Assembly: GCA_013289795.1 (NCBI GenBank)
Contig: JABCZH010000002.1
Coordinates: 62,001-126,000, forward strand
Direction: 5' to 3'
DNA from: Acidobacteriota bacterium
GTDB lineage: Bacteria > Acidobacteriota > Terriglobia > Terriglobales > Acidobacteriaceae
DNA length: 64,000 bases
Below, in pieces: positions 858 through 45,489 of this stretch. A program made the position numbers and the translations under genes. Positions within the stretch are counted from its first letter, which is position 1. The number at the start of each line of letters is the position of its first letter. Below the pieces are notes generated by a model that worked only from the letters and a program-made list of their open reading frames with translations, did no database searches and was not told the origin of the DNA.

Positions 858-862
858 TTGGG

Positions 863-1228
863 CTAACTTTTCTTTCTCTTTTTATTGCGGTTCAGCAATT
901 CATCGATTCTGGCGCCAAATTGATGCGAGCGGTCGAGTTGAAAATGCAGCTCGGGAGGACGGCGCAGGTGCAAGTTCTCCGCCACCTCGCGGCGGATGAA
1001 TCCGACGGCCGCAGTCAAGCCTTGCAGCGAGCGTTCGGCTTCTTCGTCGTCCCCGTCGAGCGTAACGAAAACTCGCGCCGATCGTGAATCCTGGGCCAGC
1101 ACCACGCTGGTGACGCTGACCAGACCGATGCGGGGGTCGCCAAGCTCGCCTTCGACGATGGTTTCGATCTCCTCGCGCAAGGCTTCTCCGAGCCGTTCCC
1201 GATGATATTTGCGCGCGCGCTGCTCCAC
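863..1228 (-). CDS. rbfA: Ribosome-binding factor A
   Basis: Small KH-like 30S maturation factor of 121 residues, the normal size, acting on the 5' helix of 16S rRNA and in cold adaptation. The start MEQRARKYHRERLGEALREE, the DPRIGLVSVTSV stretch near residues 31-42, the alternating strand AQDSRSARVFVTLDG and the LHLRRPPELHFQLD segment are all family hallmarks. The tail is a short lysine/arginine cluster. It sits between ylxP (DUF503) and nrnA in the conserved infB operon; the spacer to nrnA is five bases, indicating translational coupling. Confidence 0.93.
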   Translation of the reverse strand: MEQRARKYHRERLGEALREEIETIVEGELGDPRIGLVSVTSVVLAQDSRSARVFVTLDGDDEEAERSLQGLTAAVGFIRREVAENLHLRRPPELHFQLDRSHQFGARIDELLNRNKKRKKS

Positions 1229-1419
1229 GGTTTTCCCTCGGAGTAAAACGGATGAGAATATCAGAAAATGGGGGTTGCGTGTGGGCCGGGAGGGCGTTGG
1301 GAGGTACGAAGGTTATGGCGGGGCGGACCTCAACGGCCACAACCGCCACTCGGAATAAGCCTGTATCGGAGCGGTAAACCGCTGCGCCACCCAAAATCGG
1401 TGGTGCACGCAGAAAATGC

Positions 1420-1482
1420 ATAGGTCCTTCGTTGGGACTCGCCCGCTTCGCGAGCGACTCCGCGTCCTCAGGATGACAAAGG
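1420..1482. repeat. Dispersed intergenic element ending in CAGGATGACAAAG
   Basis: The 256-base spacer between rbfA and ylxP ends with a GTCCTTCG...CGCGAGCG...CTCAGGATGACAAAG sequence containing the small inverted repeat CTCGC/GCGAG. A related, more decayed copy lies near 14265-14365. The form resembles short dispersed elements common in Acidobacteriota intergenic DNA; that comparison is from memory. Nothing else is recognisable in the spacer. Confidence 0.45.
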
Positions 1483-1484
1483 TG

Positions 1485-1772
1485 TTACAGGTATTCGACG
1501 AAGGAGTCGGCGACCTCGGCTCCGGCGTTGTTGGTGATCCGGTTGGCCTGGCGTTCGACGTTTTTCATCAAGCCGTCGAGATAGTCGCGTGAGTCGGATA
1601 TGGCGACTACGCCGACGGTGGCGCGGTTCCACAGGCCGCTGGCATCCAGTTCGGCGACGGAGACGTTGAAACTGGCGCGCAGGCGGTCTTTCAGACTGCG
1701 CAGGACACGGCGTTTGTCCTTGAGAGACTGGGCGGCCTCGATGTGGAGCTCGAGGGTGAGTAGGGCGATCAT
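1485..1772 (-). CDS. YlxP-like DUF503 protein
   Basis: 95-residue protein of the DUF503/YlxP family, usually found between infB and rbfA, with a probable but poorly defined role in ribosome function. The N-terminus MIALLTLELHIEAAQSLKDK and the following RRVLRSLKDRLRASFNVSVAE are the diagnostic family block, and VGVVAISDSRDYL is the second conserved strand-turn. Full length for the family. Position and strand fit the infB operon, but a toxin-antitoxin pair on the other strand separates it from infB: its start at 1772 lies only 20 bases from the antitoxin operator. Confidence 0.88.
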   Translation of the reverse strand: MIALLTLELHIEAAQSLKDKRRVLRSLKDRLRASFNVSVAELDASGLWNRATVGVVAISDSRDYLDGLMKNVERQANRITNNAGAEVADSFVEYL

Positions 1773-1791
1773 TGGATTGTCCGATCAAAAG

Positions 1792-1827
1792 TACCATATC
1801 AGATGCTGGTATTTGATATGGTATAAT
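1792..1827 (+). promoter_or_regulatory. Promoter and palindromic operator of the VapBC-like pair
   Basis: A perfect 10-base inverted repeat (TACCATATCA at 1792-1801, TGATATGGTA at 1814-1823) overlaps a perfect -10 box TATAAT at 1822-1827. No convincing -35 box is present. Antitoxin-toxin complexes normally bind such palindromes to autoregulate. The -10 predicts a start near 1833-1836, only a few bases before the ATG at 1838, so the transcript would be nearly leaderless. Confidence 0.75.
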
Positions 1828-1837
1828 TTTAGTGGTT

Positions 1838-2041
1838 ATGGAAACGATTCGAAAGATCACGGTGGAGATCCCTGAGGAGCTTCTCGACAAAGCTCGAAAA
1901 GCCAGCGGCGCGGGCATTACCCAAACCGTCCGCACCGGGTTGCAGCTGGTTGCCGCATCTCACGCGTATGCCCGGCTGCGCCAGCTTCGGGGCAAAGTAC
2001 GCTTCGCACACACCGCGACTGAACTCAAAACCGATCGATGA
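1838..2041 (+). CDS. VapB-like antitoxin
   Basis: 67-residue type II antitoxin. The N-terminus METIRKITVEIPEELLDKAR forms a beta strand plus helix typical of ribbon-helix-helix DNA-binding antitoxins, followed by a GITQTVRTGLQLVAAS helix. The C-terminal part is charged and probably flexible, wrapping the toxin. A GTG six bases upstream could also be a start, but the ATG gives the family-like N-terminus. There is no Shine-Dalgarno sequence, in keeping with the very short predicted leader. It overlaps the toxin gene by four bases and lies opposite to the operon around it, so it is probably an insertion. Confidence 0.8.
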   Translation: METIRKITVEIPEELLDKARKASGAGITQTVRTGLQLVAASHAYARLRQLRGKVRFAHTATELKTDR

Positions 2042-2436
2042 TCGCAGCCGATACCAGCACCTGGATCGCATTTCTAGAGGGCGCGAAGGGCCGAGATGTC
2101 GAACTACTGGACCGCGCCCTGCGAGAGCGGCAGGTGCTTATGCCCCCGATCGTGCTCACGGAACTGTTGAGTGATCCGCAACTTCCTTCGAGTGTGGCCA
2201 AGACGCTTTCCGATGTGCCGATGATCGAGATCGAAGCAGGTTTTTGGCAGCGGTCGGGAGCATTGCGGGCGAAGATATTGTCCAAGCGTCGCAAGGCGCG
2301 ACTTGGTGACGCACTGATCGCACAGTGTTGCACGGACCGCGGCGTCCCACTTCTGACGCGGGATCGGGACTTCCGGGCGTTTGCGGAGGCCGCCGGGCTG
2401 AATATCATGGTTGGAACAGCCCCCGACGCCCGATGA
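2038..2436 (+). CDS. PIN-domain toxin, VapC-like
   Basis: 132-residue PIN-domain RNase, full length for VapC. The acidic metal-binding residues are in place: D5 in IAADTSTW, E42 in VLTELLSD, and the pair in the RLGDALIAQ and LLTRDRDF segments near residues 89 and 108. Family members cleave tRNA or rRNA and are held inactive by the cognate antitoxin. The start ATG overlaps the antitoxin stop (ATGA). It converges on infB with only seven bases between the two stop codons, so read-through in either direction would produce antisense RNA. Confidence 0.85.
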   Translation: MIAADTSTWIAFLEGAKGRDVELLDRALRERQVLMPPIVLTELLSDPQLPSSVAKTLSDVPMIEIEAGFWQRSGALRAKILSKRRKARLGDALIAQCCTDRGVPLLTRDRDFRAFAEAAGLNIMVGTAPDAR

Positions 2437-2443
2437 ATGATCT

Positions 2444-5296
2444 CTACGCGATGACCTCGGCCGCGATCTTCTCTGTCACAAAGGCTTCGATCACGTCGCC
2501 GACCTTGATGTCGGCATAATTGGCGATGGAGATGCCGCACTCCATGCCATTGGTGACCTGGCTGGCGTCATCTTTGAAGCGGCGCAGGGATCCCACTTTC
2601 CCCTTGAAGATGACCACGTTGTCGCGCAGCAGGCGAACTTCGGAATCGCGCTTGATGAGGCCGTCGATCACGGTACAACCAGCGATGGTTCCAACCTTGG
2701 GGATACGGAAGGTCTCGCGGACTTCGGCGCGGCCCTGGTAGTTTTCCTTGAAGGTGGGCTCGAGCAGGCCGCTCATGGCACGCTTGATCTCATCCTGCAA
2801 CTCATAAATGATGGAGTGCAGGCGGATGTCGACTTTCTCCTGCTCGGCCAGTTCCTGAGCTTTGCGTTCCGGACGCACATTGAAGCCGATGATGATGGCG
2901 TTCGAGGCCGAAGCCAGAAGCACGTCGGTTTCGGTAATGGCGCCGACGCCGGAGTGTATGAGCTTCAGACGGACTTTGTCGTTGGACAGCTTGGCCAACA
3001 GGTCGCCGAGGACTTCGACGGAGCCGCCGACGTCGGCTTTGAGGATGATGTTCAGTTCCTTGATGCCGGCAGTCTTGATCTGCTCGGCCAGGCCTTCGAG
3101 TGAAACGCGGGAACTCTTGGCCAGCGCGGCTTCGCGGGCCTTCTGCTCGCGGTATTCGGAGATGCCGCGGGCCTTGTCGCGGTCGGCGACGACGACGAAT
3201 TGGTCGCCAGCCTGAGGCAAGCCTTCCATGCCGAGAATTTCGATGGGAGTGGATGGCGGCGCGGTCGCGAGCGAGTTGCTGCGATCGTCGAACATGGCGC
3301 GCACTTTGCCGTAGACGTTGCCGACGACGAAGTTGTCGCCGGTTTTCAGGGTGCCGTTCTGTACGAGCAAGGTGGCGACGGGGCCGCGGCCGCGGTCGAG
3401 TTTCGCTTCGAGGACAACGCCGGTGGCCGGGCGGTCTGGATTGGCTTTGAGTTCCTGAAGATCGGCGACCAGGCAGATCATTTCCATCAGCAGGTTGAGA
3501 TTGGTTTTCTTCTTGGCGGAAACATCGACAAAGACGGTGGTGCCGCCCCAGTCTTCGGGCAGCAGGCCGCGATCGGCGAGTTGCTTTTTCACGCGGTCGG
3601 GCATGGCGTCAGGCTTATCGATTTTGTTGACGGCCACGATGATGGGCACTTCGGCGGCGTGGGCGTGATCGATGGCTTCGAGAGTCTGGGGCATAACGCC
3701 GTCGTCGGCAGCCACGACCAACACCACAATGTCAGTGGCTTTGGCGCCGCGGGAACGCATGCGGGTGAAGGCTTCGTGACCGGGCGTGTCGAGAAAAACG
3801 ATCTGGCGGCCGTAGGCGGGGGATTGCTTGTCTTGAATGGTGACTTTGTAGGCGCCGATATGTTGGGTGATGCCGCCGGCTTCGCCCCCGGCGACGTCGG
3901 TGGAACGGATAGCGTCGAGCAGCGTGGTCTTACCGTGATCAACGTGACCCATAATCGTGACCACGGGAGGCCGCGAAACTGTTTCGGTGGCTGCGGCGTC
4001 CTCACCGGCTGCACTGTCGGCAACATCTTTCGCGGCCTGTTCCTCGAAGGAGATAACGTTGGTGTCGGCTCCGAAGAAGCGCGCCATTTCGCTGGCCAGT
4101 TCGGTATCGAGGGTCTGGTTGACGGTGGCGAAGACGCCGCGAGTCAAGAGGCGTCCGATGAGATCCTTGGCGCGAATCTCAAGTTTCTCGGCAAGATCCT
4201 TGACGCTGATTCCTTCGGTGATGGTAATGCTTCGCGTAATGGGCTGTGGTTCATTGGAAAGCGAGAGCCGCGGCGGCGGCACGAAGCCCTTCATCGGGCC
4301 TTCTTTTATGCCTCGCGGAATGTAGCGCTGGCCGGGACGGCGCGCCGGACCACCGGGGCGGCTGCCGGGACGGGTGGAGCCCGGAGGCGGCATTCCGGGA
4401 CCAACACCCAGGGGACGGCTGCCGGTGGGCGCGGTACGCGTGGGATGCATGGGACGACGTTCGCCGGGACGCAACGGCGGTCGTGGGCCGGTCGCGGGTG
4501 ATGCCGGACGCGGACGCTGGAAAATGGGCTGACCGGGCACGGGACGCCCTGGAACCGAGCGCACTGGAGGCGCTCCCGCCTGAGGAGGCGGGGCGGGTGG
4601 TCTGACGTGCGCTTTATAAACCGGACGAGGGCCCGTCTGCGGCGTGATGGTGCGCGGCGAAGGAGCTACCGGACGAATGGGTGAGCTCGCAGCCGGCTTT
4701 AAACCAGCCGGCGACGCCGATAGCACGGGCGGTGGCGCGGTTGTGGCGACAGGTGTTGGGACGGCCGGACGTGCGGAAGCTGGCGGCGCGACAGTCGCAG
4801 CCGCTGAAGGCGGGGCACTGGGCGCTGACGGAGCCGCGAACGTCGGTTTGACTGCAGCGGCTGATGCTGCGGCTGGCGATGGCCTAGCCGCAGGCGCCGA
4901 GGGCGTTGCAATCTTTGGAGCTGCCGCCGGAACGGCGGGCTGGGTTGCGGCCGCAGGCGCTGGCGTGGAAGGACGTGGGACAGGAGGAGCGACTGCGGGA
5001 GATTGCTGTTTGCGGATGGCGTTCAGAACATCGCCGGGACGGGAAATCTGGGAAAGATCGATCTTGGTCTTGATCTCGTCGCTCTCAGCGCGGCTGGAAC
5101 GCGACGGCTTGGCCGATCCCGCCGCCTCACTGGCATTGGCACGGAAATGCGCCCTTACCTTGACGGCTTCGTGATCTTCAATGGAACTGGAATGGGTCTT
5201 CTTCTCGGTGACCCCGACTTCAAGCAGTACGTCGAGAATCGCCTTGCTTTTGACTTCCAGTTCCCTAGCCAGATCGTTAATTCGAACCTTGCTCAT
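2444..5296 (-). CDS. infB: Translation initiation factor IF-2
   Basis: 950-residue GTPase that places initiator tRNA on the 30S subunit. An IF2_N domain at residues 1-55 is followed by a very proline/alanine-rich linker (roughly 100-340), a second IF2_N-like domain (about 355-405) and the GTPase starting near 450 with [20 protein letters not shown] and a SAK motif. Domains II-IV complete the protein. It is somewhat longer than the E. coli protein because of the low-complexity linker. It follows nusA after 78 bases, with no ylxR gene between them as is common elsewhere. The minus-strand ATG at 5296 begins [15 protein letters not shown], the family start. Confidence 0.97.
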
Positions 5297-5374
5297 CCGC
5301 TGTGCTTCCTCCGGGGTATCCCGCTAAGTCTTCATATCAACCTCACGGTGTCAGTGTAAACGCGCTGCCAAACT

Positions 5375-6877
5375 CTACTTGTGCTGCTCGGAGGAAGGCT
5401 GCTCCTCCGCCACTTCTTCTTCTGTGGAAACCTCAGCCACGGGAACTTCCGTCGAGGGAAGATCGGGTTCAGTATCGGCAGCCGCCGCCACTTCTGCGGT
5501 TTCCTCGCTCGCAGCTTCTGCCGGGGCTGCGGCTGATTCCTCGGCTGCCGGCGCCTCAACCGATTCCGCTGCGGCAGGAGTCTCCACAGCCGCGGCGGCT
5601 TCCAGGCTGGAGAAGTAATTATTCACCGCCAGGCTGATTTTTTCCACCGTCTTGGGGCCAATACCCTCAATAGCTTCCAATTGCTCGGGGGTCATATCCG
5701 CGAGGGCTTCGACAGTGGTGACGCCCACGGTACTCAACTTAACGATCAGGGTTTCGCCCAAGCCAGGAACGTTCTCCAGCGGAGTGGGTGCAGCCGCGAC
5801 CAGCTGCGACATTTGCTGCTCAACCTCCTGGCGCTTCTCTTCCTCGCTCTTGATGTCAATCTTCCAGTTGAGCAGCTTGGCCGCCAAGCGGACGTTTTGC
5901 CCTTTCTTGCCGATGGCGAGCGAGAGCTGACTGTCGTCAACCACGACTTCGAGGTGCTTGTCGGCGGAGTCGACGATGGTTACACGGCTCACCTTGGCCG
6001 GTTGCAGAGCTTTCTCCGCAAAGGTCACCGGGTCTTCGTGGTATTCGATGATGTCAATCTTCTCGCCGCGCAGCTCGCGAATGATCGATTGCACTCGCAT
6101 ACCCTTCATGCCGACACAGGCGCCGACGGCGTCCACGTCTTTGTCCTTCGACAGGACCGCGATCTTGGTGCGCTCGCCGGCTTCGCGGGCGATGGCGCGA
6201 ATGACCACGGTACCATCGTAGATTTCGGGCACTTCGGTCTGGAAGAGATTCGATACCAGGGCCGGATCGGCGCGGGAGACCACGACTGCGGGGCCTTTTG
6301 ATGCCCGTTCTACGCGAGCAATCACGACGCGTACGCGTTCGCCGACGGCAAATGATTCCAGCCGCGACTGCTCTTTGCGGGGCATGCGCGACTCGGCCTT
6401 GCCGAGATCGAAAATCACATCTGGGCCTTCGACGCGCTTCACCGTGGCGTTGACGATCTCGCCGACGCGTCCGATGTATTCGTTGTAAACGGTGTCGCGT
6501 TCGGCTTCGCGGACTTTCTGAAAGATCACCTGCTTGGCGATTTGCGCCGCAATCCTGCCCAGAATTCCTTCGGTGACTTTGGGGGTTTGAATCTCACCGC
6601 CCACTTCAACGTTGGGATCGGACTTGCGGGCATCATCGAGCGTGATCTGGAGCAGCGGGTCTTCGACCTGCTCGGGAGTTTCGACCACGGTGCGCACCGA
6701 GAAAGCACGGATCTTGCCGGTGTCTTTGTCGAGCTGAGCGCGGAGGTTTTCCTGGGTCTTGTAATACTTGCGGGTGGCGACCACGATGGCGTCTTCCACG
6801 GCGCTGACCACAATTTGCGGATCAATGCCTTTTTCCCGGCTGAGGGCGTCAATCGTGTTGTAGAGCTCGCTTGCCAT
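5375..6877 (-). CDS. nusA: Transcription termination/antitermination factor NusA
   Basis: 500-residue RNA polymerase-associated factor controlling pausing, termination and antitermination. The RNAP-binding N-terminal domain (1-125), an S1 domain (EYIGRVGEIVNATVKRVEG, about 135-200), two KH domains (with GMKGMRVQSIIREL and IGKKGQNVRLAAKLL) and a helix-hairpin-helix repeat (VPGLGETLIVKL, about 365-425) occur in order. The last 75 residues are a low-complexity Ala/Glu/Pro tail not found in classical NusA; it may be a disordered acidic tail. Second gene of the rimP operon. Confidence 0.96.
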   Translation of the reverse strand: MASELYNTIDALSREKGIDPQIVVSAVEDAIVVATRKYYKTQENLRAQLDKDTGKIRAFSVRTVVETPEQVEDPLLQITLDDARKSDPNVEVGGEIQTPKVTEGILGRIAAQIAKQVIFQKVREAERDTVYNEYIGRVGEIVNATVKRVEGPDVIFDLGKAESRMPRKEQSRLESFAVGERVRVVIARVERASKGPAVVVSRADPALVSNLFQTEVPEIYDGTVVIRAIAREAGERTKIAVLSKDKDVDAVGACVGMKGMRVQSIIRELRGEKIDIIEYHEDPVTFAEKALQPAKVSRVTIVDSADKHLEVVVDDSQLSLAIGKKGQNVRLAAKLLNWKIDIKSEEEKRQEVEQQMSQLVAAAPTPLENVPGLGETLIVKLSTVGVTTVEALADMTPEQLEAIEGIGPKTVEKISLAVNNYFSSLEAAAAVETPAAAESVEAPAAEESAAAPAEAASEETAEVAAAADTEPDLPSTEVPVAEVSTEEEVAEEQPSSEQHK

Positions 6878-6885
6878 AGGTAAAC

Positions 6886-6912
6886 CGCTTCTAGCTCTTA
6901 GCTTCTAGCTAA
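6886..6912. repeat. Heptad array, AGCTNNT type, between rimP and nusA
   Basis: About four 7-nt units (AGCTCTT, AGCTTCT and variants) fill the spacer between rimP and nusA. Read in the direction of transcription the units carry TAA or TAG, and the rimP stop codon (6909-6911) lies inside the array. Confidence 0.8.
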
Positions 6913-7400
6913 ATCTCTGGCACTACGTTTGCCTTCTCTAGGTTGCTCAGTTCAATCTCTAGCTTTGCGGGAACGCCGCCGGGTTTCGGCTTCTTTCCTG
7001 GCGTACCCAGTTCCAGCGTCAGGCGGCCTTCGTGAAAACTTTGCAGCCGTCCTTCAAAGTGCCGGTTGCCGTTTACCGGAGTTCGCGTCGTTAACTTTAT
7101 GCGACTGCCGATGAAGCGTTCGAAATCCGCCGCCTTCGACAGCTTGCGGTCGAGGCCTGGAGATGAAACCTCCAGCACATACGGACCGCCGGGAACCGCG
7201 TCCTCCACGTCGAGAACGGTGCTCAGTTCGCGACTGACGTTGGCGCAATCCTCGTGCGTGACGCCGCCGGGCTTGTCGATGAAGACACGCAACATGCGTG
7301 AACCGCCTGAGCCACGCATGTCAACCTCGACCACCTCCACACCGCTGGAGGCGCCCACCTGGGCGGCAATTTCACGAACCCGCTCGATGTCAAATACCAT
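6909..7400 (-). CDS. rimP: Ribosome maturation factor RimP
   Basis: 163-residue 30S assembly factor with the two-domain RimP fold. Diagnostic stretches are VEVDMRGSGGSRMLRVFIDK near residues 24-43, the DCANVSRELSTVLDVED helix, and the signature YVLEVSSPGLDRKL near 87-100. It is slightly longer than the 150-residue E. coli protein. First gene of the minus-strand operon that continues with nusA and infB. Its last codon and stop lie in a heptad repeat array. No clear promoter was found upstream. Confidence 0.93.
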   Translation of the reverse strand: MVFDIERVREIAAQVGASSGVEVVEVDMRGSGGSRMLRVFIDKPGGVTHEDCANVSRELSTVLDVEDAVPGGPYVLEVSSPGLDRKLSKAADFERFIGSRIKLTTRTPVNGNRHFEGRLQSFHEGRLTLELGTPGKKPKPGGVPAKLEIELSNLEKANVVPEI

Positions 7401-7619
7401 GAAACCAGTAACTTACCGACTCCTGGGCGTGTTGTGAAAGCAGCACAAACTAAAATGTGGGCTTGCGCCCACTGGTGTGCTTCGCCAAAATCGGTTTCTT
7501 ACACAACAGTTTCCAAGGACAATAATACGCCGGGGGAGGGGAAAAGACAAACGGGGACGAAAGCGGATTGTTGCTGCGACGGGCCCGTGATACCGTACAT
7601 AGCCGTTGGGAGGCGTGAA

Positions 7620-8306
7620 ATGAAAGCCGTATTTCAAGTCGTCCTGTTTTGTCTACTCTCGGTCGCTGCCATTGCGCAATCTGGCCCACCTGCTCTGTGC
7701 AAGCCTTGCCTGTTTTATGGCGGGGATTTTTCGAACGATCTCAATTCATATGCGTTATGGGACGAGAATACTCTTTTCTACCCTAATACGAGCACCTATG
7801 GTGCGGTGCGGGTTCCGAAGGGCCACAGTGTAGTGGTTGAGGGCATCCTTTTTCAGATTCAGTTCGACCCATCTTTCCTGCTCGATCCCAGAGGCGTGAC
7901 CTGGGAAATCCGCAAAGGAGTGACCGCGGGCAGCGGCGGAACTGTGATCGCCTCAGGCCAGGGACCTGTTGCGGTCCAGCCCACGGGGAGATTCGATATT
8001 GGCCCCGAATACACCGTTGCGATCAAGACAGGTGGTGATGTGCCGCTCACGGGCGGCACCTACTGGTTCAACATCACCCCAGTCTGCGTTAACCAACGGG
8101 ACTCGGCTTGCGAGACGATTCAGTATGGTGTCTCGAACACGACGCAACAGGCAAATAGCTTCAGAGGCGGACTCCAGCCAGTTGACGAGATGTTCATCAA
8201 CTCACAGTATTACAACTATAACTGGGCAAACGTCTGCAGCTTAAACATAAATCATGCTGGCTGCGCGACGCTCTCCTTCGGGCTAATGGGAAGGATCATC
8301 CAATAG
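7620..8306 (+). CDS. Secreted protein of unknown function
   Basis: 228 residues, not recognised. The N-terminus MKAVFQVVLFCLLSVAAIAQ is a clear Sec signal peptide with a likely AIA-Q cleavage site. The mature part has several cysteines (CKPC near the N-terminus, later pairs) and a beta-rich composition, with a stretch resembling an extracellular beta-sandwich (PTGRFDIGPEYTVAIKTGG, GGTYWFNITPVC). The ATG at 7620 is chosen because GGAGG lies five bases upstream and it begins the signal peptide exactly; the reading frame stays open further upstream but is not protein-like. Possibly an adhesin or carbohydrate-associated protein; that is inference only. Confidence 0.7.
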   Translation: MKAVFQVVLFCLLSVAAIAQSGPPALCKPCLFYGGDFSNDLNSYALWDENTLFYPNTSTYGAVRVPKGHSVVVEGILFQIQFDPSFLLDPRGVTWEIRKGVTAGSGGTVIASGQGPVAVQPTGRFDIGPEYTVAIKTGGDVPLTGGTYWFNITPVCVNQRDSACETIQYGVSNTTQQANSFRGGLQPVDEMFINSQYYNYNWANVCSLNINHAGCATLSFGLMGRIIQ

Positions 8307-8333
8307 CGTTTAGCTGTAATCAAGCGACGCAAA

Positions 8334-10496
8334 TTATTGCACTTTGCCCCTCAAGACAGTAATTGACGCCGTGGGCAGTGTGTACTCGACGCCCATGCCT
8401 CCGGGTTGGTCGGAAGTCGTGGCCGGGCCGTCAGGGTTGGCGTAGCCATTTTGACCGTTGGGGTGCCAGACATAGTTGTCGGCGCCGAAGCTGATCTGGG
8501 TTACGTCTCCGTTGAAGTAGTGGTCGGTGTTGTTTTGTGCATTGTGAAAGTCGACTTGCACGGGGTGGGGACTGAACTGGTCTTTGTTCACCAGCAGCAA
8601 TGACCACTGTCCGTCGGGGCGCAAGGCCGAGTACGCCGTCACCAGCACGTGGCCTTGACCGTCGGTGATGTTGCTGGCAGCGGGGAAGACGGTGTGGGTC
8701 TTGTCCACCGGGTCAGACCATTCCTGCGTCAACATTTGTGCGGCGAAGAATTGCGCGGTGTCCTGCGAGACGTTGTAGTTCTGATCTACGTTGAACATGC
8801 CGAATGTGCCCCAGCCGCCGCAGCCTTGATACATGGGCAGCGGCTCCCACTGATAGTAGTAGAGCGCCTGGCCGCCGGCGGTGAGAAAGGCTCCGGCGTA
8901 GTCGGCCAGCCAGAGTGCGCCGACGGGCTGCATGTATGCCGTAGCGGTGTCGAAGGCCAAGTTGGATTCGGTGATTTGCATGGGCACGCTGGGCGGCAAG
9001 CCATCCCGACGCCAGGTTTTCATGATGCCCGTGACGGCTTGCGGCTCGTAGTAAAGATCCTGCCATTGCAAGTTGCACGGGTCGAAGGGATAGTGCTCGA
9101 AAGTCATGACGTTCAGGTCTTTGTCGTGCCCGTGGCTGTGCAGGTAGCGAAGAAAGCGGTTGAACCATGACACGTTGCCTTGCGCGTTCGGCCACACCTG
9201 AATGTCGCTGTTCACGCCTTCAAACACCGGGCCTGCGAGCTGGATGGTGGGATCGACTTTGTGGATGGCATCGGCCCACTGGATGTATAGCGCGGCGTCA
9301 TCTTCCGGCAGGACAAACTGTCCGTCGGGTTCTTCGCCCAGCTCGATGTAGCGGACGGCATAGCCGCGGCTCTTGATGAAAGCAATTTCGCTGGCGGCGT
9401 TGTCGGGGTTGTCATAGAGCATGGCCACGGGAATGGTCATGGGAATGCCGCGTGTGAGGCCGCTGCGGAAGACGAGATCGAAGCCGGGCTGCTCGCCATC
9501 ATCGGTGGCGATTTCGTTCGGCGTGTGCCAGGAATCGATAGATGAAGCGTAGGTCAGAGTCTGGTTCGGGTCGGGGCTGTGGTGTATCAGATCGACAAAT
9601 CTGTTGTTCGAATCGAGATATCCGAGATAGACCTCGTTGATGGAGAAGCCCAGGCAGTTACGGTGATCGGCGGAGCCGTGAGTGTCGCAGGTGTTGGATG
9701 AAGCGGTCATCAGCACGCGTACGAACTCTACTTTCATTTCGCTCTGCGAAAACTGCACGGTGACGGTACCGCCCTGGCCGCCGGTGACGGTTCCGTTGGG
9801 AAACGTGACCCAATTGCCGTTGGCGGGACTGCCGATGGGGTCACTGCCGGTCCAGTATTGAATCTGATAATCGGTGGCGTAGGGATTGGCCCAGGCGATT
9901 TGCATGGCGTCGACGCTCTTTTGGCCGCCGAGGTCGATGAAAATCCAGCCGGGATGCAGCGAGTTGTCTTCACCGGTGTAAGTCTGGTCGAGGTAAGGAT
10001 CGCTCTTCCAGTAGGTGGTGAGGTCGCCGTCGTCGAGCACGGAGTAGCCGCCGCTGGTGCCGTAGTTGCTGGTGGTGCCACGATGCGGCAGGTTGTATCC
10101 GAAGGAGCGCTTGAGCTCGCCGGAGCTGTGCGCGTCGCCGACGAAGTAGCCTTGGCCGGCGGGGTCGCTCCATGAGCCGACGGGATTCCAGTGCCATGCC
10201 TGAATGCTCAGCTCGGTGTTCAGGCGATAGCTGATGGGGCCCCATCCGGCGGTGAGCATGGTGGCGACGTGGGAAGGATCGTAGAGCGTCTGCACCGAGT
10301 TGAGGGGATCGCGGTCGATGCCGGCGCCAAGCGCGCGCAGCGGACTGAAAGTGTTGGTGGAGTGGCCGGGAGTGACGTCGACCGTAACCTGCTGGGCGAG
10401 AAGGGGCAGGGCGAGGAGCACGATTGCGGCTGTAGTGAATCGATTTAATACGCGTGGACAAAAAAATTGGACTCGATGCGTGGAGCGGGTTTTCAT
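8334..10496 (-). CDS. Secreted clan-A-like glycoside hydrolase with discoidin-like domain
   Basis: 720-residue exported protein. A signal peptide covers about the first 35 residues. Residues 140-295 resemble an F5/8 type C (discoidin) carbohydrate-binding domain (DDGDLTTYWKSDP, GWIFIDLGGQKSVDAM). Residues 330-620 look like a TIM-barrel glycosidase of clan A (GH39/GH44/GH51-like): ELGEEPDG near 385-392 would hold the acid/base glutamate and QITESNLAF near 507-515 the nucleophile. A small beta domain follows, ending in a TASITVLRG strand. The ATG at 10496 has GGAGG ten bases upstream; a GTG six bases earlier is possible. The exact GH family and substrate cannot be told from the sequence alone; a plant or microbial polysaccharide is likely. 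Confidence 0.75.
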   Translation of the reverse strand: MKTRSTHRVQFFCPRVLNRFTTAAIVLLALPLLAQQVTVDVTPGHSTNTFSPLRALGAGIDRDPLNSVQTLYDPSHVATMLTAGWGPISYRLNTELSIQAWHWNPVGSWSDPAGQGYFVGDAHSSGELKRSFGYNLPHRGTTSNYGTSGGYSVLDDGDLTTYWKSDPYLDQTYTGEDNSLHPGWIFIDLGGQKSVDAMQIAWANPYATDYQIQYWTGSDPIGSPANGNWVTFPNGTVTGGQGGTVTVQFSQSEMKVEFVRVLMTASSNTCDTHGSADHRNCLGFSINEVYLGYLDSNNRFVDLIHHSPDPNQTLTYASSIDSWHTPNEIATDDGEQPGFDLVFRSGLTRGIPMTIPVAMLYDNPDNAASEIAFIKSRGYAVRYIELGEEPDGQFVLPEDDAALYIQWADAIHKVDPTIQLAGPVFEGVNSDIQVWPNAQGNVSWFNRFLRYLHSHGHDKDLNVMTFEHYPFDPCNLQWQDLYYEPQAVTGIMKTWRRDGLPPSVPMQITESNLAFDTATAYMQPVGALWLADYAGAFLTAGGQALYYYQWEPLPMYQGCGGWGTFGMFNVDQNYNVSQDTAQFFAAQMLTQEWSDPVDKTHTVFPAASNITDGQGHVLVTAYSALRPDGQWSLLLVNKDQFSPHPVQVDFHNAQNNTDHYFNGDVTQISFGADNYVWHPNGQNGYANPDGPATTSDQPGGMGVEYTLPTASITVLRGKVQ

Positions 10497-40639: not shown

Positions 40640-41422
40640 CTACTTGCCCTTGAATTGCGGCGCACGCTTTTCCAGAAATGCCGTGGTGCCTTCTTTCTTG
40701 TCTTCCGACGAGCAGGCGACGCTGAACAGAACGGCCTCGAGATAAAGCGCGTCTGACAACGGCATGTTGAAGCCTCGGTTCACTGCTTCCATCGAATACT
40801 GTACCGCCAGCGGCGAGTTGGCGATGATTTTCTGCGCGATGGCCTCCGCCCGGGGAATCAACTCGGCTAGTGGCGTGACTTCGTTCACCAGCCCCATGCG
40901 ATGAGCCTCTTGAGCCGTGATCATTTCACCGGAAAGGATGAGCTGCATTGCGCGTCCTTTGCCGACCAGACGTGGCAGACGCTGAGTGCCACCGTAGCCG
41001 GGAATAATTCCGAGCTTCACTTCGGGCTGGCCGAGCTTGGCGTTGTCGCTGGCCAGTCTCATCGTGCAGGCCATGGCGATTTCGCAGCCGCCCCCGAGGG
41101 CGAAGCCATTGATGCAGGCGATGACGGGCTTGCCGAGGTTTTCGATTAAATCGAGAACGCTCTGGCCGCGGTGAGTATATTCCTTGCCGCTGACGGCGTC
41201 TTGCTTGGCGAGTTCACCGATGTCGGCGCCGGCGATGAATGCTTTTTCACCCGAGCCGGCAAGGATGGCGACGCGAATGTTGGGATCGTTCTTGGCGTCG
41301 GTGAAGGCAGCGCGCAGCTCCTCCATGGTGGCCATGTTGAGCGCGTTGAGGACCTTCGGCCGGTTGATGGTGACGTAGGCGATCGAGTTTTTCTTTTCGA
41401 ACAGAACGTTTTCGTATGTCAT
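40640..41422 (-). CDS. Enoyl-CoA hydratase / crotonase
   Basis: 260-residue crotonase-fold enzyme hydrating 2-enoyl-CoA, closest in type to 3-hydroxybutyryl-CoA dehydratase (Crt). MTYENVLFEKKNSIAYVTIN, the oxyanion hole AFIAGADIGELAKQDA (65-80), ACINGFALGGGCEIAMACTM with the first catalytic Glu, and GQPEVKLGIIPGYGGTQRLP with the second Glu at about 135. Together with the 3-hydroxyacyl-CoA dehydrogenase and thiolase further on it would run the butyryl-CoA/beta-oxidation cycle, but a nuclease and a toxin-antitoxin pair now lie between them. Confidence 0.9.
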   Translation of the reverse strand: MTYENVLFEKKNSIAYVTINRPKVLNALNMATMEELRAAFTDAKNDPNIRVAILAGSGEKAFIAGADIGELAKQDAVSGKEYTHRGQSVLDLIENLGKPVIACINGFALGGGCEIAMACTMRLASDNAKLGQPEVKLGIIPGYGGTQRLPRLVGKGRAMQLILSGEMITAQEAHRMGLVNEVTPLAELIPRAEAIAQKIIANSPLAVQYSMEAVNRGFNMPLSDALYLEAVLFSVACSSEDKKEGTTAFLEKRAPQFKGK

Positions 41423-41437
41423 TCCTCTGACCTTTTC

Positions 41438-42712
41438 CTATTTAACCTTGCCGGATACCGCCTTGTTGCAATTCGAGCACAGTGCCCGCGCGTTCTTGAG
41501 GCTCGTGAGGCCACCGTGAGCCCATTGCTTCTCATGATCCGCTTCCATCTCGTCGATATCTTTGAACGCCTTTCTGCACTCTGCGCATTGCCTGCCTGAG
41601 AGAACAAAGATCGCGAATCGTTCTTCCTCTGTGTAAGCCCTCTTCTTATCCCTTAACACAACATCGGGATAATCCTGCAAGAATGTCCGCCGCAAGATTG
41701 AGATCCGCTGCCTAAGGCTATTAAGATCGTTGGTCCCTTGCTGCATCAGGCGCCCGAACTCCGTCAGAACCGGGTCACGTTCCTCTTCTTTCTTTTGCAG
41801 ATTCTGTTGGCGCTTCACATGGAAATCTTCCAGAAACTTGTGCAAATCAGAATACAGAGTTGAATGGGCATATTCACCATTCATCACTTTCGCGAATAGG
41901 TAGTACAGTGGAACCGCCGCTTGCTTGTCCAATAAAGGGTCGTCCTTCACAAAGACCCTAGAGACCAGCTTGAGCTCATCGATCACCCGCTTATGTAGGC
42001 CGTCCCGAAATGCTGCCGACATTTTGCGGTTGGACTTAACAAGATTGTCCAGAAATCTTTTCTTCAGATCACAGAAGGGATCGCCGGTGTCAGTCTCACT
42101 TTTCTCAATCAAAAGCATCTTCGCTGCCAATTCGTAGTGTTGATACCGATTGTTGCCGAACGGGATCCGGGAAGAAAAGAACGCTAGTTTCGCGACATCA
42201 CGTATGAGCTGGCACATCTCGCCACCGAGGGCGTTGCGTTTCTCGGCTGCGTTAAGAGGCTCCCCGTTATTGAGCCTCGAAAACAACTCCTCGATGTCCT
42301 CGGATGTAGCGTCTCGGACCAGAACAACATCCAGTAATTTTCCCTTGAAGATTTCTTGCCACTCAGAAGTTAGAGTTGAGAAACCGACCTTAGCGGGCGG
42401 TGGCGTGCGATCCTCTGGTTCGAACATAACGAAGTCGTCGGCAAGATTGATGCCCCCGTCTATGAAGTTCCAAATCGCATGCAGGCGCTGTTTTCCGTCG
42501 ATCACCGCAAACTTATATTTCCCATGCTTCCCGCGTAAGTCGTGCAAATAGATTTTCGGCACATCGAACTTGTTTAGTATTGAATCCAAGAACAGCTGCT
42601 GTTTATCAGGCGACCACACTCCAGACTCGCGCTGGTATTCAGGGGAGTCGTTGATAACGTTCTTCTCGACCACGAACATGCCTATCGACATCCTCTCTGT
42701 TACGCAGTGCAT
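41438..42712 (-). CDS. DUF262 + HNH endonuclease (GmrSD-like defence nuclease candidate)
   Basis: 424 residues. The N-terminal half is a DUF262 domain (ParB/sulfiredoxin-like nucleotide-binding) with SPEYQRESGVWSPDKQQLFL near 22-41, FAVIDGKQRLHAIWNFIDGG near 68-87 and LFSRLNNGEPLNAAEKRNAL. The C-terminus is an HNH nuclease with CAEC, MEADHEKQWAHGG and ALCSNC: two Cys pairs around the D-H at about 392-393. The same two-part design is used by type IV restriction systems such as GmrSD, although the HNH here is not the DUF1524 type. The ATG at 42712 has GGAG eight bases upstream. Base composition is visibly AT-richer than its neighbours, suggesting recent transfer. Confidence 0.82.
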   Translation of the reverse strand: MHCVTERMSIGMFVVEKNVINDSPEYQRESGVWSPDKQQLFLDSILNKFDVPKIYLHDLRGKHGKYKFAVIDGKQRLHAIWNFIDGGINLADDFVMFEPEDRTPPPAKVGFSTLTSEWQEIFKGKLLDVVLVRDATSEDIEELFSRLNNGEPLNAAEKRNALGGEMCQLIRDVAKLAFFSSRIPFGNNRYQHYELAAKMLLIEKSETDTGDPFCDLKKRFLDNLVKSNRKMSAAFRDGLHKRVIDELKLVSRVFVKDDPLLDKQAAVPLYYLFAKVMNGEYAHSTLYSDLHKFLEDFHVKRQQNLQKKEEERDPVLTEFGRLMQQGTNDLNSLRQRISILRRTFLQDYPDVVLRDKKRAYTEEERFAIFVLSGRQCAECRKAFKDIDEMEADHEKQWAHGGLTSLKNARALCSNCNKAVSGKVK

Positions 42713-42789
42713 GACTCTTTCTCCGTCACTCCTCTGAATTAGTGTCGTCGTAGATCGTGGCCGCGCCGACCACAAGACTTGGCGAGGCG

Positions 42790-42828
42790 TTGTGGCTTGG
42801 GACAATAGTCTGCTATAATTGTATAGCA
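42790..42828 (+). promoter_or_regulatory. Promoter and palindromic operator of the RelBE pair
   Basis: An extended -10 (TGCTATAAT, TATAAT at 42814-42819) follows TTGTGG (42790-42795) at 18 bases. The perfect inverted repeat TGCTATA-ATTG-TATAGCA (42811-42828) covers the -10, the usual arrangement for toxin-antitoxin autoregulation. GAGGTG lies before the ATG. Confidence 0.75.
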
Positions 42829-42840
42829 CGAGGTGATTCC

Positions 42841-43065
42841 ATGCTAGCCATCCGTCTTCCAGAGAAAATCGAGAAACGGCTTGATCGACTAGCCAAGCGC
42901 ACCGGCCGCACCAAGACCTACTATGCGCGCGAAGCTATCCTACAACACCTGGATGAACTGGAAGATGTCTATATCGCTGAAAGGCGACTAGAGGCAGTGC
43001 GGTCAGGACGCAGCAAGCCAATCCCCCTCGAAAAGGTGATGCGGCGTTATGGCATGGCGGATTGA
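42841..43065 (+). CDS. RelB/DinJ-like antitoxin, ribbon-helix-helix
   Basis: 74 residues. MLAIRLPEKIEKRLDRLAKR followed by TGRTKTYYAREAILQHLDEL is the ribbon-helix-helix DNA-binding fold of RelB/CopG-like antitoxins; the C-terminal ERRLEAVRSGRSKPIPLEKV segment probably binds the toxin. The ATG at 42841 has a strong GAGGTG site and is preferred over a longer open frame. It overlaps the toxin gene by 17 bases. Confidence 0.88.
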   Translation: MLAIRLPEKIEKRLDRLAKRTGRTKTYYAREAILQHLDELEDVYIAERRLEAVRSGRSKPIPLEKVMRRYGMAD

Positions 43066-43318
43066 AATCGACCCCGCAGCTCAGCGTGAGCTCGACAAGC
43101 TGGACCAATCAGTAGCCCGCCGCGTTCTTAAATTCCTCGACCAGCGATTAGGTCAGCTCGACGATCCACGAAAAATTGGGGAAAGACTTCACGGGACTTT
43201 GAGTGAATTCTGGAAATATCGAGTGGGGGACTATCGCCTGATCTGCTCCCTGGAGGATGATCGGCTGGTCGTGCTGCTGCTCCGCGTCGGGCACCGCCGG
43301 GAAGTTTACAAACGCTAA
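43049..43318 (+). CDS. RelE/ParE-superfamily toxin
   Basis: 89 residues with the compact RelE fold. MAWRIEIDPAAQRELDKLDQ, then RVLKFLDQRLGQLDDPRKIG, WKYRVGDYRLICSLEDDRLV and VVLLLRVGHRREVYKR. The R61 and R81-type basic residues of mRNA interferase RelE have counterparts (YRVGDYR, GHRREVY). RelE-type toxins cut mRNA in the ribosomal A site; ParE types attack gyrase, and the two cannot be separated by eye, although the sequence looks RelE-like. The stop lies close to the end of the acyl-CoA dehydrogenase gene on the other strand. Confidence 0.88.
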   Translation: MAWRIEIDPAAQRELDKLDQSVARRVLKFLDQRLGQLDDPRKIGERLHGTLSEFWKYRVGDYRLICSLEDDRLVVLLLRVGHRREVYKR

Positions 43319-43323
43319 TCAAG

Positions 43324-43349
43324 AATCCGTGTTAATCCGTGCAAATCCA
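43324..43349. repeat. AATCCGTGTT tandem repeat
   Basis: Two and a half units of a 10-base word (AATCCGTGTT, AATCCGTGCA, AATCC) in the space between the toxin gene and the dehydrogenase. Confidence 0.6.
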
Positions 43350-43360
43350 TGGCCTCGCTC

Positions 43361-44239
43361 TTACAATTTATTCGGCTTCGGGTTGCTAGGATCCGAATAA
43401 TCGTAGAAGCCCTTGCCAGTTTTCTTCCCGTACCAGCCCGCCATCACCAATCTCTTCAATAAAGGCGGCGAGGCGAAGCGGCGTTCCTTGAATTCGTCGT
43501 ACATCACGTGGGTGATGTAGTAGGTGGTGTCGAGGCCGACGAAGTCCAGCAAGGTCAACGGACCCATGGGATAGCCGCACCCCAGTTTCATGGCATTATC
43601 AATGTCTTCGATCGATCCGACGCCTTCTTCGTAGGCACGGACGGCATCGAGAAGATACGGTACCAGCAGACGGTTGACGATGAATCCGGTCTTGTCGCTG
43701 GTGCGGACGGGGACTTTGCCGAGCTTCTTGCCAAACTCGTAAGCGGTATCGTACACGTCGGGAGCGGTGGCGATGGTCTTTACCACTTCGACCAGCTTCA
43801 TCAGCGCCACGGGATTGAAGAAGTGCAGGCCGATGAAGCGTTCGGGACGTTTCGTTGCCGACATCAGTTCGGTCACGGAGATGGAAGAAGTGTTGGTGGC
43901 GAAGATGGCGTCCTTCTTGGCGATGGCATCAAGAGCCGCGTACATCTTCTTCTTTTCGACGATGTTCTCGATCACGGCTTCGACCACGATGTCGCAATCA
44001 GCGAGGTCCTGCATGTTGGTCGTGCCTTTGAGGCGGGCACGCACGGCTTGGGGAGTTTCTTTTAGCGTGCCCTTCTCGGCAAACTTGGCCAGCGACTTCT
44101 CGATGCCAGCGAAGCCTTTATCGAGAAACTTCTGCTCAACTTCGAGGACGGTGACTTCGAATCCGGCTGTTGCTGAGACCTGGGCTATGCCGGAACCCAT
44201 CAAACCACAGCCCAGAACTCCGACTTTCTTTATCTCCAT
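43361..44239 (-). CDS. 3-hydroxyacyl-CoA (3-hydroxybutyryl-CoA) dehydrogenase
   Basis: 292-residue NAD(P)-dependent dehydrogenase. The Rossmann motif VGVLGCGLMGSGIAQVSATA at 7-26, the catalytic-type stretch RFIGLHFFNPVALMKLVEVV with the histidine, NRLLVPYLLDAVRAYEEGVG and GCGYPMGPLTLLDFVGLDTT near the dimer interface are classical. It oxidises 3-hydroxybutyryl-CoA to acetoacetyl-CoA or the reverse. Same strand as the thiolase 50 bases upstream, most likely one operon with it. Confidence 0.92.
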   Translation of the reverse strand: MEIKKVGVLGCGLMGSGIAQVSATAGFEVTVLEVEQKFLDKGFAGIEKSLAKFAEKGTLKETPQAVRARLKGTTNMQDLADCDIVVEAVIENIVEKKKMYAALDAIAKKDAIFATNTSSISVTELMSATKRPERFIGLHFFNPVALMKLVEVVKTIATAPDVYDTAYEFGKKLGKVPVRTSDKTGFIVNRLLVPYLLDAVRAYEEGVGSIEDIDNAMKLGCGYPMGPLTLLDFVGLDTTYYITHVMYDEFKERRFASPPLLKRLVMAGWYGKKTGKGFYDYSDPSNPKPNKL

Positions 44240-44289: not shown

Positions 44290-45489
44290 CTAATTCAAAC
44301 TTTCGACGATCATGGCGATTCCCTGCCCGCCACCGATGCAAGCGGTCGCCAGGCCATATTTCTTCTTGCGGCGGTGTAGTTCGTAGAGCAGAGTGATCAC
44401 CAGCCGCGTGCCGGTTGCGCCCAGGGGATGTCCGAGGGCGATGGCCCCGCCGTTCACGTTGACTTTGCCGCGATCGAGGCCGAGTTCTTTTTCGACCGCC
44501 AGATACTGGGCGGCGAACGCTTCATTGACTTCGATCAAGTCAATGTAATCCAGAGTCAGCCCAGCTTTTTGCAGGGCGATCTTGGTGGCTGGCACGGGGC
44601 CGCGGCCCATGAGCTTTGGCTCAACGCCGGCGATCCCCCAGCTTACGAGGCGGCCCATCGGTTTGACGCCGCGTTTCGTGGCTTCTTCGAGCGACATGAC
44701 GACGACTGCCGCAGCGCCGTCCACGATACCGCTGGCATTTCCGGCGGTGACGGTGCCGTTCTTGCCGAAGGCTGGTTTCAATTTAGCGAGGCCTTCGATC
44801 GTGGTTTGGGGACGGCGATGATCGTCTTCAGTCAGGGTTTCGCCGGTGGGCTCACCTTTGTGATTCTTGAGCGGGATCGCGACCAGTTCATCCTGCAAGC
44901 GATGCTCTTTGTAGGCGGCATCGGCAGCCTGCTGGGAGCGCAGAGCGAACTCGTCTTGTGCCAGGCGAGTGATGCCATGCTGCTCGCCGTAGAGTTCTGC
45001 GGTGTTGGCCATGTAGGAACCGCAGAAAGTGTCGAGCAGGGCGACCATCAGTGAGTCTTCGAGCTTGCCACCGGGAGCCAGGGAGAAGCCGTCGCGCCCG
45101 CGAATGGAGAACGGAGCCTGCGACATGGCTTCCATGCCGCCGGCAAGGACGACGCTGGCCTCGCCGAGCTGAATCATCTGAGCGGCGTTGACAATGGCTT
45201 GCATGCCTGATCCGCAGAGACGATTCACGGTGAGCGCGGGAGTCTCGATGGGCAAGCCGGCGCGCAGGCCGACGTGGCGGGCGCCATAAAGAGCGTCGCC
45301 GGAGGTTTGCTGGGCGTTGCCGAAGACAGCATGGTCGAAGTCTTTGGGATCAACTCCGGCGCGTTCGATGGCACCCTTGGCGGCGATCGCGCCCAACTCC
45401 TGCGCAGTGAAGTCTTTCAGCTTACCGCAATAGCGGCCAAAGGGCGTGCGCGCCCCGCTGACGATGGCGATGTCTCCTGGTTTGAGCAT
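44290..45489 (-). CDS. Acetyl-CoA acetyltransferase (thiolase)
   Basis: 399-residue thiolase condensing or cleaving acyl-CoA. The nucleophilic cysteine is in TVNRLCGSGMQAIVNAAQMI near residue 90; the active-site histidines are in YIDLIEVNEAFAAQYLAVEK and NVNGGAIALGHPLGATGTRL, and the second cysteine in LATACIGGGQGIAMIVESLN at the end. Together with the dehydrogenase and the crotonase it can interconvert acetyl-CoA and crotonyl-CoA. The start is the minus-strand ATG at 45489. Confidence 0.94.
   Translation of the reverse strand: MLKPGDIAIVSGARTPFGRYCGKLKDFTAQELGAIAAKGAIERAGVDPKDFDHAVFGNAQQTSGDALYGARHVGLRAGLPIETPALTVNRLCGSGMQAIVNAAQMIQLGEASVVLAGGMEAMSQAPFSIRGRDGFSLAPGGKLEDSLMVALLDTFCGSYMANTAELYGEQHGITRLAQDEFALRSQQAADAAYKEHRLQDELVAIPLKNHKGEPTGETLTEDDHRRPQTTIEGLAKLKPAFGKNGTVTAGNASGIVDGAAAVVVMSLEEATKRGVKPMGRLVSWGIAGVEPKLMGRGPVPATKIALQKAGLTLDYIDLIEVNEAFAAQYLAVEKELGLDRGKVNVNGGAIALGHPLGATGTRLVITLLYELHRRKKKYGLATACIGGGQGIAMIVESLN

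Follow-up and report, generated by a model that had tools for sequence, protein, structure and literature searches.

The window analysed here (64,000 nucleotides of contig JABCZH010000002.1, from an Acidobacteriota genome) contains, in the spacer between the genes of a 3-hydroxyacyl-CoA dehydrogenase and of a crotonase, a gene in which a DUF262 domain is fused to an HNH nuclease domain. The reading preferred here, to which a probability of about 60% is assigned, is that the encoded protein would be a solitary nuclease, made of a single polypeptide, gated by nucleoside triphosphates (NTP) and restricting foreign DNA, which would have arrived late in this spacer by horizontal transfer; the RelBE toxin-antitoxin pair found next to it would be a bystander, not a partner. 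The reading builds on the integrity of the gene, its domains and motifs, the predicted folds, the occupancy of the site among relatives and the phylogenetic placement of the protein.

In the proposed mechanism, the N-terminal ParB/Srx-type DUF262 domain would bind, and probably hydrolyse, NTP and would sense a feature of foreign DNA; the helical region would relay the state of the sensor to the C-terminal HNH domain, which, folded as beta-beta-alpha, would nick or cut the incoming DNA. Passages of PMC10952713 and PMC11662687 describe, for SspE and DndI, the coupling of the DUF262 NTPase both to a mark on the DNA and to a nicking nuclease at the C-terminus; the NTP-gated sensor and the fused HNH cutter are proposed for the window protein by analogy with this coupling. 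The cutting, a DNA target (modified or not) and phage resistance are likewise inferred. The nuclease gene would have entered, late, a spacer already holding RelBE with its own operator.

The reading frame of the gene runs uninterrupted from the ATG at 42712 to 41438 and encodes 424 residues; the start was picked by alignment to relatives, while the frame itself opens at a GTG at 42829. Pfam recognises the GmrSD N-terminal domain (DUF262, PF03235) at residues 22-161 (E 5.6e-17) and a classical HNH domain (PF01844) at residues 376-419 (E 1.5e-8); no Pfam match to DUF1524 is found at E 0.1 in the DUF262-HNH, RelB and RelE proteins, nor among the ten neighbours scanned. The two-domain protein with a short HNH in place of DUF1524, described in an initial annotation made from the sequence alone, is thereby confirmed.

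The motifs listed for DUF262 proteins (QR, DGQQR and FxxxN, in passages of PMC12137116) have counterparts in the window protein at Q27-R28, D72-GKQ-R76 and F144xxxN148; in a 22-row alignment eight columns are invariant, among them Q27, R28, D72, G73, Q75, R76 and F144. The HNH domain features the residues D392-H393-N407-N416, with an H-N-N spacing of 14 and 9, the same as in a Geobacter HNH enzyme, for which passages of PMC4619093 single out H54-N68-N77. An AlphaFold2 model, based on 14 sequences, reaches a mean predicted local distance difference test score (pLDDT) of 87.3 and a predicted template modelling score (pTM) of 0.69. BrxU is its first Foldseek match in the Protein Data Bank (PDB; E 1.9e-5). 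The C-terminal domain of the model matches the Geobacter HNH nickase 4h9d_C (Z 8.4, root-mean-square deviation (rmsd) 2.6, 67 residues), and the N-terminal domain matches both SspE 6jiv_A (Z 8.3, rmsd 3.5, 135 residues) and the nucleotide-bound ParB-CDP 6sdk_A (Z 8.2, rmsd 2.6, 93 residues); structural realignment covered 778 of the 784 Foldseek chains, and families outside that list may match as well. By sequence, a phmmer search of the PDB with the single protein gives three weak matches (best E 0.05), and the 14-sequence profile finds DUF262 chains at 5.1e-5 and BrxU at 4.2e-4. Motifs and model together support a predicted nucleotide pocket of the ParB/Srx type and a predicted DH-N-N nuclease site; the D/H, N and N/H catalytic residues of the HNH superfamily (PF01844) lie in a predicted beta-beta-alpha fold. 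The initial annotation had made its reading depend on a nucleotide-binding pocket: its three motifs are in place, and the fold modelled around them is ParB/Srx-like. The localization of all features is reported in Table 1.

Table 1. Features of the dehydrogenase-crotonase region, in window positions
Feature	Position	Strand	Basis
DUF262-HNH fusion gene, intact, 424 aa	41438..42712	-	ORF reading, Pfam
DUF262 / ParB-Srx-like NTP-binding domain, residues ~4-153 (predicted)	42254..42703	-	Pfam, alignment, model
DGKQR motif of the DUF262 domain	42485-42499	-	
HNH nuclease domain, residues ~355-424; pairs C376-C379 and C412-C415, D392-H393, N407, N416	41441..41650	-	
13-bp near-direct repeat (12/13), crotonase-side copy, includes the crotonase start codon	41418..41430		
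13-bp near-direct repeat (12/13), relB-side copy	42725..42737		
Palindromic relB operator TGCTATA-N4-TATAGCA	42811..42828		window motif search
relB antitoxin gene, ribbon-helix-helix family, 74 aa	42841..43065	+	Pfam, NCBIfam
relE toxin gene, RelE/ParE family, 89 aa	43049..43318	+	Pfam, NCBIfam
Dehydrogenase-crotonase spacer	41423-43360		
Crotonase (enoyl-CoA hydratase) gene, slot edge	40640..41422	-	Pfam
3-hydroxyacyl-CoA dehydrogenase gene, other slot edge	43361..44239	-	Pfam
Thiolase gene	44290..45489	-	Pfam

The composition of the gene sets it apart: its GC content is 0.500, and 0.621 at third codon positions (GC3), against means of 0.588 (standard deviation 0.018) and 0.721 (standard deviation 0.029) in 21 other open reading frames (ORFs), hand-picked within the window. 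The AT-richness reported by the initial annotation is therefore real. A 13-bp near-direct repeat brackets the gene; an equal match occurs in 6 of 2000 shuffles, in 2 of 3000 random interval pairs and in 2 of 276 gene-leader pairs. Its interpretation as a target-site duplication is suggestive only, because the repeat overlaps the crotonase start and was spotted post hoc.

The Pfam-identified genes of Table 1 bear out that the crotonase gene is split from the dehydrogenase and thiolase genes by the DUF262-HNH gene and RelBE, inside an acyl-CoA gene order which is itself conserved. The site was then compared among relatives. The first 37 genomes searched, the own genome included, provided 19 loci outside it with a dehydrogenase 60-87% identical; crotonase follows in 17 of them, the exceptions being a contig end and a lumazine synthase. 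Among 300 genomes of the family, the dehydrogenase was found in 116 (at 1e-130) and the crotonase in 122 (at 1e-105), and in 101 of the 116 the crotonase lies within 5 kb on the same strand. Seven crotonase rows (G503, G460, G449, G641 contig 171, G286, G023 contig 26 and G544) were omitted from the join; none is on a listed dehydrogenase contig, and the count is unchanged. Spacer length in the 101 genomes ranges from 24 to 1957 bp, 57 spacers measuring 299 bp or less and 44 measuring 328 bp or more; the window spacer, at 1941 bp, is the second longest. The fillers of the long spacers are many and unrelated: a single cluster of 13 loci encodes a zinc-ribbon protein in which some stretches are membrane-like, 8 loci encode small proteins of membrane-like character, RelB is present in 12 (the window among them), and several fillers are singletons; a GIY-YIG-like frame is also found among the fillers of relatives' loci (L072-L078, L101-L140). 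All these names but RelB were judged by eye, and most fillers, again by eye, are unlike defence genes. Seen across the family, the stretch between dehydrogenase and crotonase is a slot whose gene content varies.

RelBE and the nuclease gene have different histories at this slot. RelE was matched at 1e-12 in 61 of the 300 family genomes, and 11 rows at or near the slot were taken into the spacer comparison. Seven other genomes (L072-L078), other genera among them, hold an intact RelBE pair, and no DUF262, in the same spacer and orientation; remnants are left in five more, as part of RelE (G010), RelB with a frame-broken RelE (G628), RelB alone (G024, G581) or part of RelB (G569). In a tree of 30 RelE proteins, built from fetched loci and not from all matches, the nine from the slot (window, L072-L078 and G010, the only one of the five decayed sites included) form one clade (98/98), apart from the 21 found elsewhere, which is the pattern expected of one old insertion that was then inherited vertically and decayed. 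DUF262-HNH, in contrast, is not found by tblastn at E 0.01 in any of the 48 other spacers examined, including the seven intact and the five decayed RelBE sites (49 loci, two of which are the same place). RelBE and the nuclease gene would therefore be separate arrivals: most simply, RelBE would be the older resident of the slot and DUF262-HNH a later, low-GC newcomer. The same count disposes of a housekeeping family always accompanying crotonase, the alternative named in the initial annotation. Comparing the same site across genomes thus separates the old resident from the newly arrived nuclease and corrects the tempting view of a small defence island, put forward in that annotation, since RelBE is older, separately inherited and, in other genera, without DUF262, and most slot fillers are unlike defence genes.

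Matches of any kind to the DUF262-HNH protein, at 1e-10, are found in 12 of the 300 family genomes and in 13 of 396 genomes of the phylum (own genome in both), the best one outside the own genome scoring 1.7e-43. The nearest DUF262 sequences, 38-41% identical within residues 16-346, belong to four Bacteroidota genomes and a viral contig; these proteins stop before any HNH, and an FRG-domain protein is encoded immediately upstream of them. Seven more distant loci (31-36% identical) show this pairing too. FRG was confirmed by Pfam in 10 of the 12 loci (L042, L044, L058, L046, L004, L060, L142-L145) and seen as a motif only in L043 and L045; some of these kin are on a plasmid and in viral-collection contigs, and two FRG proteins scanned match the PADLOC candidate PDC-S15. 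No FRG-domain gene is present among the scanned neighbours of the window gene; a genome-wide search was empty, but detected 0 of 14 controls and does not show genome-wide absence.

In a 35-row tree, the window DUF262 domain groups with the 12 FRG-paired proteins without HNH and with one phage protein, L141 (100/99). An earlier tree of 34 rows, without L141 and L142-L145, had placed the window protein as sister to eight FRG rows (group of nine 100/100, FRG rows 96/90); between the two, L062, L006, L067, L056, L069 and L007 were dropped and seven rows added. With L141 present the inner fork does not resolve, and the HNH label can be explained by one change or by two, a single change sufficing in 50% of 200 bootstrap trees, so that the tree cannot tell HNH loss in the FRG-paired proteins from HNH gain in the window lineage. 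Frg has been placed in the ART superfamily and might act as an NADase, according to passages of PMC9503650. A tentative view, judged less likely than not, is that one clade of DUF262 sensors exchanged its effector, a separate FRG protein (ART superfamily, possible NADase) in most members and a fused HNH in the window and phage proteins. If so, phages and their hosts would employ one sensor in their conflict, coupled to abortive loss of NAD or to DNA cutting; and if a shared clade means a shared trigger, these proteins would be a natural set of one sensor with two effectors, and what DUF262 senses would become directly open to test. The present comparison links fusions of DUF262 with HNH, DUF262 genes paired with FRG, and replication modules of phages, which are unconnected in the literature looked at: the searches gave no description of a link among this DUF262 clade, FRG-paired genes and phage replication modules, nor any paper in which "FRG domain" and "DUF262" occur together; related effector exchange might be described in a 2025 article on polymorphism of Menshen domains.

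A number of observations weigh against the solitary, NTP-gated defence nuclease, some of them being also the ground of rival explanations. The fold matches, at Z of about 8, are at the level which the tool flags as possibly common, although they still agree with the sequence families; the whole-chain overlay on BrxU is poor (rmsd 13.6 over 290, TM-scores 0.24 and 0.19). A surrounding defence cluster is absent at the locus, where the neighbours are RelBE and acyl-CoA genes. The best PADLOC match of the protein, to NsnA at 94.9 bits, is a general DUF262 signal; the profile search suggested by the initial annotation, against GmrS/GmrD and defence models, recovered the GmrS domain, while it gave no DUF1524 and no better defence model than NsnA.

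A further observation of this kind comes from the scan of a viral collection, of which the best 80 loci were kept. The best full-length homologue among the matches listed, L141, is a gene of a phage replication module, which also fits a phage-side function: it is 31.5% identical over residues 5-418, reaches 44% over 68 aa in the HNH part (E 1.6e-17), and is located (1-5561, named by PHROGs) in the order DNA primase, DUF262-HNH, thymidylate synthase (ThyX), DnaB-like helicase, DNA polymerase. In L147 (3932-7762), one of four like hits (L146-L149), DUF262-HNH lies just before a DNA polymerase gene, in a polymerase and exonuclease cluster. The main rival explanation, rather unlikely in our estimate, is accordingly that the window gene derives from a free-standing nuclease of phage replication modules, which excludes rivals, attacks host DNA or spreads, and is now a chromosomal passenger, selfish and not protecting the cell. 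It would agree with a gene standing alone, found once at the slot among the spacers examined and flanked by a 12/13 repeat; yet the repeat is weak, as good a match being seen in 2 of the window's 276 gene-leader pairs, and no phage gene is recognised beside the window gene in a Pfam scan of the three proteins and ten neighbours. L141, moreover, is about 3 substitutions per site away in the tree, flagged as a long row, and the FRG-paired proteins (up to 41%) are nearer to the window domain. Named phage records match the window protein in 69 cases and L141 in 29, none over 80% of the length, so that the phage-borne form is seen in metagenomic contigs only.

Two plasmid loci likewise weigh against the preferred reading, and would suit another rival, that of a sequence-specific type II restriction enzyme, orphaned by loss or by location elsewhere of its methyltransferase. 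L062, from a Leuconostoc plasmid, has the domain order of the window protein, adjoins an EcoRI-family adenine methyltransferase and is called by PADLOC a type II restriction enzyme (PDLC03418) at 308 bits; L059, from a conjugative Rhizobium plasmid, is located between DNA methyltransferase and DEAD/DEAH helicase genes. Such an origin appears distinctly unlikely for the window gene: no methyltransferase is found among its ten scanned neighbours, its product reaches only 39.8 bits with the restriction-enzyme model, the best stretch being in the HNH part, and L059 belongs to a different DUF262 clade. The L059 region (895-10223) features in a row SNF2-related, DNA methyltransferase, DUF262-HNH and DEAD/DEAH helicase genes, and resembles a restriction-type system whose nuclease would be DUF262-HNH.

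In the surroundings of ten further DUF262-HNH genes, no more than 2 of the 51 neighbours scanned share any one Pfam family, and these genes, therefore, also seem to stand alone. The 51 belong to 102 ORFs called by a greedy length rule, and families were ranked by members, the top 25 of 39 being considered and the rest having at most one member each. In one relative (L005, 1453-2708), DUF262-HNH is split into two overlapping frames of 254 and 187 aa, indicating a disrupted gene or a frameshift.

The length rule missed a RelE-type pair, recovered by tblastn, which is the last of the observations unfavourable to a solitary nuclease: at 711-1225 of L048 (L048/L222), one of 15 neighbourhoods compared, a RelE homologue of 91 aa (2.1e-7), with an antitoxin-like frame of 80 aa directly before it, precedes DUF262-HNH by about 220 bp on the same strand. 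A doubtful RelE match (0.002) is near DUF262-HNH in L229, and a Phd/YefM-like match below cut-off is near it in L225. These cases, together with the adjacent and divergent arrangement in the window, would suit a single defence module of DUF262-HNH and RelBE, with the toxin as a fail-safe, for which a precedent exists in the ptuXYZ operons, where, according to passages of PMC11980606, a DUF262 protein is encoded together with an RNase of the RelE superfamily. Such a module is nevertheless very improbable, given the RelBE pairs, intact in seven genomes and decayed in five, which occupy the same site without DUF262, and the single clade of the nine usable slot RelE proteins; in 13 of the 15 other DUF262-HNH neighbourhoods, moreover, neither RelE nor RelB is matched at 0.01. 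Toxin-antitoxin pairs are common, so that one or two RelE neighbours may be due to chance, the simpler account of L048 and of the doubtful L229. Judged from these comparisons, a joint RelBE/DUF262 island is unlikely.

RelBE itself is well defined: RelB matches the RelB-like family NF048017 of NCBIfam at 9.8e-33, and RelE matches Pfam PF05016 at 3e-17 and TIGR02385 (RelE/StbE) at 2.7e-9. The two genes overlap and diverge from the DUF262-HNH gene, from which a 128-bp intergenic stretch separates them. The operator, TGCTATA-ATTG-TATAGCA, is a perfect 7+4+7 palindrome, matched once in the 64-kb window at up to 2 mismatches, against 0.03 expected, and the same form is found at all 7 other sites with intact RelBE. 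Of the divergent RelBE with its own palindromic promoter, described in the initial annotation, the families and the palindrome are supported. A scan of the region for consensus promoters and terminators gave no excess over shuffles and lists none at the operator, although a TATAAT hexamer can be seen by eye within it.

Some further sequences were observed in and around these loci. A 29-bp interspersed repeat, of the type CCA[C/T]GGATTTGCACGGATTAACACGGATT, is located between relE and the dehydrogenase gene (43324-43352); counting this copy, the own genome holds nine matches at E 1e-3, and similar stretches occur in relatives' spacers. In L074, the 3' end of the dehydrogenase gene recurs between relB and crotonase (2046-2147; residues 259-292, 85%); RelBE thus has a dehydrogenase 3' end on either side there, a possible trace of duplication or recombination. 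The same genome as the window also encodes a second DUF262 protein (L001; G000 contig 4, 340745-341413; 577 aa), in which a LEHVLPQ motif, as in GmrD, is seen by eye; the host, therefore, probably also has an ordinary fused GmrSD.

Among known systems, GmrSD, BrxU, SspE and DndI resemble the window protein in having an N-terminal DUF262 domain with QR, DGxQR and FxxxN, in a predicted ParB/Srx fold, and a C-terminal His-Me nuclease of the D/E-H-N-N type. The window protein differs from them in its C-terminus, a PF01844 HNH with two CxxC pairs instead of DUF1524, in its motif, DGKQR instead of DGQQR, and in its length, 424 aa against about 560-770 aa in the BrxU, SspE and DndI chains. Membership in GmrSD was rejected, because the defining DUF1524 was looked for and is absent; the protein may still work like GmrSD. 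The GmrSD-type label of the initial annotation is thus an analogy only, the closest DUF262 kin being FRG-paired and the best full-length homologue listed a phage gene.

Menshen was rejected as well. NsnA, which we take to be Menshen A, scores 94.9 bits with the window protein against 394.6 with the DUF262 protein of L011, which is located beside an ATPase-like gene (by eye); no partner gene of the ATPase/OLD type is found among the scanned neighbours of the window gene, which are RelBE and acyl-CoA genes.

The FRG and DUF262 pairs have the closest DUF262 sequences (up to 41%) and share the clade (100/99), but their proteins end after DUF262 and a helical region and are accompanied by an upstream FRG gene of their own, while the window protein has a fused HNH and no FRG neighbour. 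The phage protein L141 is co-linear over its full length, with the same two domains and the same DUF262 clade; L141 and L146-L149 differ in being phage-borne and in their distance in the tree, where L147 is placed outside the clade. Type II enzymes like L062 (PDLC03418) also carry DUF262 and HNH in one chain and in the same order, but L062 is on a long separate branch of the 34-row tree and paired with a methyltransferase, which is not adjacent to the window gene. Passages of PMC12704722 report, as a class found in bacteria, fusions of a ParB-CTPase fold with an HNH of the family PF01844; the domain combination of the window protein, down to the Pfam family, is thus already known, and the passages of that survey do not single out its clade. 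RelBE, finally, is alike to type II toxin-antitoxin systems in its overlapping genes, ribbon-helix-helix antitoxin, toxin of the RelE/ParE fold and palindromic operator: an ordinary pair, distinctive only as an old resident of a spacer in a metabolic gene cluster.

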